From an uncultured Prevotellaceae bacterium (GTDB lineage: Bacteria; Bacteroidota; Bacteroidia; Bacteroidales; Bacteroidaceae), in assembly GCA_947307015.1 (NCBI GenBank), contig CAMZHV010000004.1, forward strand, positions 38,398 to 102,397: DNA of 64,000 bases. Reading direction: 5' to 3'. This document shows, one piece after another, positions 11,987-58,326 of the stretch. The notes under the pieces are model-generated. The model was not told the DNA's origin. It searched no databases and saw nothing but the letters and a program-made list of their open reading frames with translations. Every line of letters begins with the position of its first letter. The first letter of the stretch is position 1. Made by a program: the position numbers and the translations under genes.

Positions 11987-12111
11987 AATAATTAAGGAAA
12001 TATATCATAATTCAATTGTACCGAATCCGATGCAATTGGATTTTGAGTAGTTATTTTCATTACAATAATATTTACTTCTTTGTAAAACTGTTTGCCAATT
12101 ATTCAGAAAAA

Positions 12112-12223
12112 CAGCCATTTACAAAAAAGGTTTCAGGTTTCAGATTTGCTTGTATCTTACTCACAATCAATGGCTTTCTGGCTGAACCTTTATCGGCGAG
12201 GTTTCAGCAGGTTTCAGCAAGCT
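12112..12223. repeat. R1 outer inverted repeat, left arm
   Basis: The arm starts CAGCCATTTACAAAAAAGG, has GGTTTCAGGTTTCAG and ends in GTTTCAGCAG/GTTTCAGCAA units with a 10-base period. It pairs end to end with 12540-12652; the middle ~35 bases have diverged while both ends are conserved. Confidence 0.85.
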
Positions 12224-12302
12224 TCAGCCTACCCACCCTTCGGGGCATCTCACAAACCAAAAGCGTCCCAAATTATAAGTAATCGAGCAAAAATATTTAA
12301 AT

Positions 12303-12335
12303 AGATTGACGATAAGATTGACGGAGATTGACGGA
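12303..12335. repeat. R1 inner inverted repeat, left arm
   Basis: Three GATTGACG words lie in tandem. The 33 bases match the reverse complement of 12366-12398 at about 28-29 positions by eye, leaving a 30-base AT-rich loop. Confidence 0.85.
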
Positions 12336-12365
12336 GAATATAAACACTTGAATAATTTTGTTTTA

Positions 12366-12398
12366 TCCGTCAATTTCCGTCAATCAAGTCGTCAATCT
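12366..12398. repeat. R1 inner inverted repeat, right arm
   Basis: TCCGTCAATTTCCGTCAATC continues to CGTCAATCT and is the partner of 12303-12335. Confidence 0.85.
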
Positions 12399-12440
12399 TC
12401 GAAAATCAATAATGTAATCTAATTTTGAGTACTTACTTAC

Positions 12441-12520
12441 CGATTTAAATTCCGATACATCAAGATTTAAGGTCAGATTTATGTCAGATTTAAGGTCTAT
12501 AAAAAATACATCCGAAACTT
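12441..12520 (-). repeat. Core segment shared by R1 and R2 (R1 copy)
   Basis: Read on the minus strand, this carries CGGATGTAT, CTTAAATCTGACATAAATCT and then AAATCTTGATGTATCGG. The plus strand at 57556-57630 has the same order of words with scattered substitutions. It includes three AGATTTA-type words spaced 11-12 bases apart. Confidence 0.7.
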
Positions 12521-12539
12521 GAATATTACAATCATCTGA

Positions 12540-12652
12540 ACCTTGCTGAAACCTGCTGAAACCTCAAACGCAAAGGTTCAGCTTGTATGGCTTTGATCAA
12601 CAGAAAGTTAAAACCCTAAGCTGAAACCTGAAACCTTTTTGATAAATGGCTG
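12540..12652. repeat. R1 outer inverted repeat, right arm
   Basis: Contains GCTGAAACCTGCTGAAACCT and CTGAAACCTGAAACC, and ends AAATGGCTG. It is the inverted partner of 12112-12223. Confidence 0.85.
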
Positions 12653-12714
12653 GATTTTTGGGATCTCGCGTCATCCATCATTCGTCATCGCCACACATAT
12701 ATACGTGTGAGGCC

Positions 12715-14613: not shown

Positions 14614-14646
14614 TTTCAGAAACTTTCTGATGTTGAAAAAAACAAG

Positions 14647-14870
14647 AAAAACCCCTCTTCTAATGTCTGAGTCTTTCAGACTTACGTGCTGCAGTCATGG
14701 CGATGCGCCTGAAAGCAGGCTTTCGCGCACGCCCCGCCATCATCACTCGTTTCGTCCCGAAACACAGACATCAGCAGAGGCAAACGCTCGAACTTGTTCG
14801 CTTCTTCGAGTCTCTTCTATGAGACGAGTCTGAAGAACATCGCGCTTCGCGCTAAAAAACAGAGCTACTG
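14647..14870 (+). repeat. 224-bp dispersed repeat, copy 1
   Basis: Aligns without gaps to 57642-57865. I count about 14 mismatches, nearly all in the first 130 bases; from ACAGAGGCAAACGCTCG to CGCTAAAAAA the copies are identical. It contains inverted segments (TTCGAGTCTCTTCTATGAGA..., GCGCTTCGCGC) and an uninterrupted 55-codon frame from ATGTCTGAGTCTTTC (14664) to TGA, also open in copy 2. The surrounding gap (14529-14939) has no other gene. Confidence 0.85.
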
Positions 14871-57338: not shown

Positions 57339-57370
57339 ATAGTTGCCACCCAATCCTCTTATTGCGCGTA

Positions 57371-57487
57371 TACGCGCGCACGTGAAAGGCCTAAAAATCT
57401 CGTCACATCGTCACAGATTGACTTATCTGTCTGTTATACAGCTTGATATATCGTGACTTTTGGTGTGACAGAGCGTGACAAGGTGAC
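57371..57487. repeat. R2 outer inverted repeat, left arm
   Basis: TACGCGCGCACG..., TCGTCACATCGTCACA, then spaced GTGAC words ending AAGGTGAC. It pairs end to end with 58084-58202; the central ~30 bases are diverged, as in R1. Confidence 0.8.
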
Positions 57488-57555
57488 GAAATCGAGGAAA
57501 ACGCGACGAAAAACATACTGAAATCAGGAAGAAAATAGGTTTAAACAGGACTCCT

Positions 57556-57630
57556 GTTGCGGATGTATGATTGTATTTCAGAACTTAAATCCAACATAAA
57601 TCTAAACCTAAATCATGAAGTTTCGGTATT
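57556..57630 (+). repeat. Core segment shared by R1 and R2 (R2 copy)
   Basis: GCGGATGTAT, CTTAAATCCAACATAAATCT and AAATCATGAAGTTTCGG occur in the same order as on the minus strand at 12441-12520. Confidence 0.7.
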
Positions 57631-57641
57631 AAAAAAACATT

Positions 57642-57865
57642 AAAAACACCTCTTCTGATGTCTGAGTCTTTCAGACTTGCGTGCTGCTGTCGTGACGATG
57701 CGCCTAAAAGCAAGCTTTTGCGCACGCTACGCCATCATCCCTCGTTTCGTCCCGAAACACAGACATCAACAGAGGCAAACGCTCGAACTTGTTCGCTTCT
57801 TCGAGTCTCTTCTATGAGACGAGTCTGAAGAACATCGCGCTTCGCGCTAAAAAAAAGAGCTACTG
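57642..57865 (+). repeat. 224-bp dispersed repeat, copy 2
   Basis: Same length as copy 1 at 14647-14870, about 14 mismatches by eye. It sits in the R2 loop directly after the shared core, which makes the R2 loop longer than that of R1. The 55-codon frame (ATG 57659) is open here too. Confidence 0.85.
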
Positions 57866-57896
57866 ACGATCATTTTGATTTCATAATGTGGCATCA

Positions 57897-58025
57897 ATGA
57901 AAAGATTGAATATCGTTTCAGCAGATGACTTCGCCGCGCTCAACGAATGCAATATAGACTTACCTAATCGCAAAAGTCACGGATTCTGTGCAAGAGGACA
58001 TGCTTTTTTATGTTCCAGAACCTAA
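57897..58025 (+). pseudogene. 42-codon fragment, possibly a broken coding sequence
   Basis: ATG 57897 opens MKRLNIVSADDFAALNECNI..., ending at 58025. The +1 frame beyond the middle reads TDSVQEDMLFYVPEPKNTSF-stop, which also looks coding. This suggests a frameshifted gene fragment. Family not recognised. Confidence 0.3.
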
Positions 58026-58083
58026 AAATACATCATTTTGAATGTTAATATCATTTAATTTCAGGGTGAAAATGAGCCGTTTT

Positions 58084-58202
58084 GTCACCAAATCACGCCT
58101 CGTCACAGGCTTTGTCACGGCATAGTTACCTGTTTATCAGATATATAACCATACAATGTGACGATGTGACGACATTTTGATAGCCTCTCGTGCGCGCGCG
58201 TA
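58084..58202. repeat. R2 outer inverted repeat, right arm
   Basis: GTCACC...GTCACAGG...GTCACGG, then TGTGACGATGTGACGA and CGTGCGCGCGCGTA. Inverted partner of 57371-57487. Confidence 0.8.
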
Positions 58203-58253
58203 GGTCGCGCCCATCATCTTTGCACAGCGTGACTTCATACTCGCATCAGTCAA

Positions 58254-58326
58254 CACGTCTATACGTTTTAGCCGATACGTATAGACAAATAGACTGTTCG
58301 ACACGTGTCGAACAGTCTATTCGTCT
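58254..58326. repeat. ACGTCTATACGT word and a 34-bp perfect palindrome
   Basis: ACACGTCTATACGT, then an inverted ATACGTATAGAC. AATAGACTGTTCGACAC and its exact reverse complement form 58288-58321, centred on CACGTG; one mismatch further out it extends to 58283-58326. It lies downstream of the last lipoprotein gene (minus strand), but no T-run follows on that strand. Confidence 0.8.

Follow-up and report, generated by a model that had tools for sequence, protein, structure and literature searches.

A dispersed inverted-repeat element of a rumen Prevotella-like bacterium, probably a gene-less offshoot of primase-helicase elements that carry mirrored word arrays

The element R2 lies between two convergent genes in the 64,000-nucleotide stretch of contig CAMZHV010000004.1 analysed here (the window), which belongs to an uncultured Prevotellaceae bacterium with an incomplete genome (86% complete, 2.99 Mb, 94 contigs). 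An earlier note on this DNA described inverted arms rich in GTCAC/GTGAC, a loop, a further word and a palindrome, all of which are present in the sequence. Judging from where the similarity between its genomic copies stops, R2 extends from about 57366 to 58318, approximately the limits given in that note. When the 64-kb window is searched against itself, the two arms (57371-57491 with 58080-58202) align over 124 columns at about 70% complementarity (E 1.3e-5), leaving a loop of 588 nt between them. GTGAC/GTCAC, which has a background of 1.6 per kb in the window, occurs six and five times within 95 bp of the two arms, and these are its densest clusters, all other 95-bp stretches of the window being lower. 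A search of the window against Rfam yielded a tRNA as the sole match.

The left arm of R2 starts with a GC-rich outer end of 20 nt (TACGCGCGCACG, 57371-57390), which is 80% complementary to its mirror at the outer end of the right arm (CTCGTGCGCGCGCGTA, 58183-58202); this type of end is also present in other copies and in the gene-bearing element L131 described below. Next come two inverted GTCAC words on the minus strand (57402-57406 and 57410-57414, together 57402-57414), which are 8 bp apart and (near-)invariant in the arm alignment, an AT-rich spacer (57415-57452), and four GTGAC words on the plus strand at 57453, 57465, 57475 and 57483, spaced by 12, 10 and 8 bp (57453-57487). The right arm mirrors the left one, with four inverted words on the minus strand at 58084, 58092 (ATCAC), 58102 and 58114, spaced by 8, 10 and 12 bp (58084-58118), and two GTGAC words 8 bp apart on the plus strand (58158-58170). 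This layout (a word pair at 8 bp, some 40 bp of AT-rich DNA, then four words at 12, 10 and 8 bp) is fixed; 18 arm units align end to end, the invariant columns fall mostly inside the words, and the spacers have a mean AT content of 67% vs 47% in the word regions. Scored against a spacing template, the left arm reaches 33/36 and the right arm 32/36, with a maximum of 28 for shuffled DNA. Beyond the right arm, a tail (58203-58282) carries the word ACGTCTATACGT (58255-58266) and its partner CGTATAGAC and is conserved in copies C1, C11, C10 and C7. The right limit of R2 is formed by a palindrome (AGACAAATAGACTGTTCGACACGTGTCGAACAGTCTATTCGTCT, 58283-58326), which is 95% complementary and measures 44 bp instead of the 34 bp first reported.

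At least five more two-armed copies (C1, C7, C10, C11 and C17) were identified when the source genome was searched with R2, together with single arms on C60 (twice), C63 and C22. The C63 arm unit was considered as a possible autonomous copy and rejected, as the adjoining gene reads as a host topoisomerase subunit. R2 and C11 are alike from about 57371 to about 58318 and have unrelated flanks; C1 and C17 have a further 186 bp in common on their left side, belonging to a different dispersed repeat, and C7 and C10 share some of the right flank. An empty site was sought via the repeat upstream of C1 and C17, and an uninterrupted counterpart was not found; nor was a target-site duplication evident at the ends of R2, and no recombinase was found, so that it is the dispersal of the copies that points to movement. 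Genome G066, which has the most gene-less copies, contains at least eight double-armed elements that show the whole plan in G066's own sequence: 12-bp words form an inner layer, ACGTA-type words make up the tail, and the final palindrome is present in those elements that were read far enough. The idea of a shared plan with changing sequence is borne out; even in G066 the plan is kept, with words specific to its species.

The loop of R2 carries two nested repeats. Its "core" (57556-57615), previously described as homologous to a second element of the window, R1 (window 12107-12659), is the left arm of a repeat, D, with words CTTAAATC and CATAAATC about 11 bp apart, as recognized from solo genome copies and copy comparison; the right arm of D is deleted in R2 and present in C17. 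Inside D sits repeat E, of the GAAAAAAACA...TGTTTTTTTC type (57631-57865), which also occurs alone at window 14636-14870 with 93% identity to the R2 stretch, and further in the genome. Because D and E each occur alone elsewhere in the genome, and the loops of C7 and C10 (about 100 bp) lack D, the core is not part of the basic element. The sharing with R1 is genuine, but what is shared is an arm of an independent dispersed repeat. As a separate repeat, the core occurs without the inverted arms at many sites, so the refuting observation named in the earlier note applies to the core. On contig C40, a D repeat directly adjoins the downstream arm of one of the gene-bearing (BT4734-VapE) elements treated below (L088, 4393-4702).

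R1 and R2 are members of different word families, and the arms of R1 do not fit the R2 spacing template. R1 has the word GGTTTCAG, ends AAAATCCAGCCATTT and at least 13 copies in the genome, usually with a loop of 70-110 bp and a tail of ACGTNTATACGT and CCTCCTAAGAG words always on the same side, and its family is almost absent from the rest of the genus. A primase-helicase partner for the word GGTTTCAG was not found; the array of this word is restricted to the source genome and two relatives. R1 also contains a nested repeat (window 12275-12439) with the word ATTGACGG, three words being inverted on each side; it has many solo copies in the genome, and the 100% identity of the C68 copy over 163 bp suggests that it moved recently.

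An arm model, from which all arms with a known gene beside them had been left out, was searched in 139 genomes of the genus and matched in 40 of them, with a maximum of 25 matches in one genome. Among the matches listed, ten arms at seven loci lie beside BT4734-VapE genes, while a simple calculation that assumes about 3 genes per 3 Mb and counts 3 kb on each side gives a chance expectation below one. Inverted arms on both sides of the gene were found at L131 (G019:C38), L130 (G048:C131) and L133 (G148:C32), where the opposed arms are separated by 2.5-2.9 kb and have a single gene of about 2.2 kb between them. Its product contains BT4734-like_N (PF08800) and VapE-like (PF05272) domains according to Pfam and so joins a primase of the BT4734-like family to a VapE-like helicase of the SaPI-Rep type, and no transposase was found between the arm pairs read. 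The protein profile matches the solved vapE protein 7pds (E 4.5e-9), the sole PDB sequence match; the structure model is poor (pLDDT 61.8) and gave no significant structural match. PF08800 is present in 104 of the 139 genomes. In one clade (L092, L133, L207, L211 and L217), a second small ORF of about 150-180 aa is located between the upstream arm and the vapE-like gene. As well, opposed A-type arms 1.6 kb apart occur at L132 (G148:C81, 1991-3881) with no BT4734 gene between them, and the stretch that they enclose is full of smaller nested inverted repeats.

Six BT4734 genes were found in R2's genome, three of which are flanked by long inverted repeats made of other words. The exact R1 and R2 words were not found near these six genes, because each element has its own word, and a comparison of inverted repeats then revealed the arms. 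Likewise, GTGACG words are absent at all six BT4734 genes found in this incomplete genome and at the one BT4734 gene read of the two in G066, also incomplete. A cognate gene with R2's word was thus not found in the same genome, which is 86% complete; the parent may be lost or unassembled, and such a gene is not strictly defining. The flanking inverted repeats of 13 of the 47 complete BT4734-VapE genes exceed those of all 34 control genes. Moreover, when the spacing template (8 // 11-13, 10-11, 8) was applied to 79 genes (158 flanks) and 383 control flanks, scores of at least 30/36 were reached by 27/158 vs 2/383 flanks, and scores of at least 32/36 by 17 vs 0. Therefore, the arrays at these genes are not due to chance.

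The words vary among the elements (GTGAC, GTGAA, GTGTA, GTGCT, GTGCA, and GGTGAC in G019), while the spacing recurs, and in the protein tree most of the elements with high template scores fall into one supported clade of 10 proteins with differing words. Short palindromes are four times commoner upstream of BT4734-VapE genes than of controls (1.50 vs 0.36 per 600 bp), and palindromic tails precede the gene in related elements, including L131, whose tail has a palindrome core, GACTGTTTGACCCGGGTCAGACAGTC, similar to that of R2. Many BT4734-VapE genes have weak arrays or none. Among these is a group found in many species just upstream of an lpxD-like start, MEFTAQQIA... (L219, L224, L229, L235 and L216), which has a fixed site and weak arrays and is possibly domesticated.

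By sequence, the arms, ends and tail of R2 clearly match those of gene-bearing elements in related genomes; its arms are homologous to the gene-flanking ones, keep the same word spacing and are mirrored at both ends, and the tail palindrome is held in common with L131, in line with the general upstream enrichment. R2, C1, C7, C10, C11 and C17 have the appearance of MITEs, being multiple dispersed gene-less copies with terminal inverted repeats; their ends, however, match BT4734-VapE elements and, in the arm pairs read, not a transposase-encoding element. R2 is real and dispersed and resembles a MITE, but its parent would be a primase-helicase element carrying mirrored, iteron-like arrays and not a transposase element. 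We regard it as probable that R2 descends, in miniature and without the gene, from a single-gene element encoding a BT4734-like primase fused to a VapE-like helicase. The arms are most likely iteron origins bound by the element's protein, as in the replication modules of SaPI and SCCmec. Each arm might then represent a complete iteron origin, its short words forming two opposed sets on either side of an AT-rich stretch; the primase-helicase, perhaps supplied in trans, would bind the words, open the DNA and prime copying from both ends. Gene-less copies could spread in this way and become a landing ground for repeats such as D and E. Copying of the gene-less elements in trans is suggested by their number and dispersal.

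One alternative is that R2 is an ordinary MITE, moved by a DDE transposase recognizing the GC-rich arm ends, with the primase-helicase as a passenger. Dispersed gene-less copies with inverted ends do look like MITEs, and Porphyromonas has MITEs that contain internal repeats (PMC4596501). We nevertheless consider it unlikely, as the genes read between arm pairs are BT4734-VapE and not transposases, the conservation resides in word arrays at fixed spacing and not in the ends, and no target-site duplication was evident at the R2 ends. The BrickBuilt/PgRS MITEs of Porphyromonas gingivalis resemble R2 in being intergenic, gene-less elements of Bacteroidales with inverted ends and internal iterated repeats, but they have tandem repeats of 23 or 41 bp, IS5-like ends and no primase-helicase parent.

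The words could also be operators, through which the protein itself or a host regulator controls the vapE-like gene, the R2 copies being inert or regulatory fragments. One array does occupy the promoter region of the gene. A second, mirror-image array past the stop codon would be unneeded for autoregulation, though, and the gene-less double-armed copies retain both arrays; we regard this explanation as quite improbable.

R2 could further be a repeat of the REP/BIME or terminator kind, under selection for a long hairpin or cruciform (the selection proposed in the earlier note). This possibility draws on its position between convergent genes and on folding, as the fold of the whole element (956 nt) is much more stable than that of shuffled DNA (z -10.7) and the tail palindromes fold with z -7.3. 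Single arms, on the other hand, fold no better than shuffled DNA (z about 0), and the two arms of one element do not match each other better than arms taken from different elements, as 682 of 720 re-pairings gave an equally good fit. In addition, arm conservation is concentrated in the word columns (about 0.85 identity, vs about 0.55 for the rest), and in the ATGTAGGC group (L179, L180 and L183) the two word sets stand in direct instead of inverted order, an arrangement that protein sites would allow. A selected hairpin is therefore not supported. REPs are tied to RAYT, a tyrosine transposase. R2 is similar to REP/BIME in being a dispersed palindromic intergenic repeat with arms single or in inverted pairs; unlike REPs, which are hairpins of 20-40 bp, it consists of word arrays of about 120 bp tied to a primase-helicase, and we hold that it very probably does not belong there. 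Finally, that the loop is a segment flipped by recombination between the arms, as was proposed from the opposite core orientation in R1 and R2, can practically be dismissed, because R1 keeps the right arm of repeat D and R2 the left arm, the arms of R1 and R2 are of different families, and the orientation of loop vs tail is identical in 4/4 core-bearing R2-type copies. No known IS or phage end matching the arms was found; in sequence and layout they correspond to the ends of the primase-helicase element.

Origins of SaPIs have opposed iteron sets around an AT-rich region, and the gene-bearing relatives of R2 show this layout, with opposed iteron-like sets around an AT-rich stretch beside an initiator-helicase gene. 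SaPI Rep uses its C-terminal domain to recognize the origin. The helicases of SaPI and SCCmec bind short iterons beside their own gene, which are AAGTG in SCCmec (PMC7581432). Like the SaPI Rep and SCCmec Cch2 proteins of Staphylococcus, the protein of the R2-type elements would be a self-loading initiator helicase with a primase domain or partner and short iterons by its gene. In contrast, the staphylococcal systems belong to large islands that also carry integrase or recombinase genes, whereas R2-type elements have one gene between two mirror-image arrays, and many gene-less copies. The protein encoded between the arms is the BT4734-like primase (PF08800) with VirE/VapE helicase; in the passages of PMC5862659 considered, BT4734 is placed among the archaeo-eukaryotic primases with no clade assigned, VirE/PF05272 is predicted to be a helicase of mobile elements, and neither element ends nor arrays of words nor miniature copies were found for the BT4734 family. 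Elements of the BT4734/VapE kind whose ends are iterated were not found in the literature searched, which was mostly open-access, nor was a role for BT4734-like primases.

R2 represents a little-described kind of DNA unit of rumen Prevotella-like bacteria, which is apparently spreading. More tentatively, it may belong to a Bacteroidales class of mobile DNA that spreads by replication and not by a transposase, comprising a primase-helicase gene between mirrored iteron origins, whose word varies among lineages while the spacing is kept, and gene-less passengers with two origins; we place this somewhat short of an even chance. The arms would give the BT4734-like primases, carried by 104 of the 139 genomes of this rumen genus, a defined partner in the DNA, with a word that the sequence itself reveals, and would supply this orphan family of primase-helicases with an origin against which it can be tested as an initiator. 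The differing words would form a natural series of changes useful for recognition studies, and a layer of intergenic repeats that has so far lacked an explanation in these genomes may consist of offshoots of a primase-helicase family.
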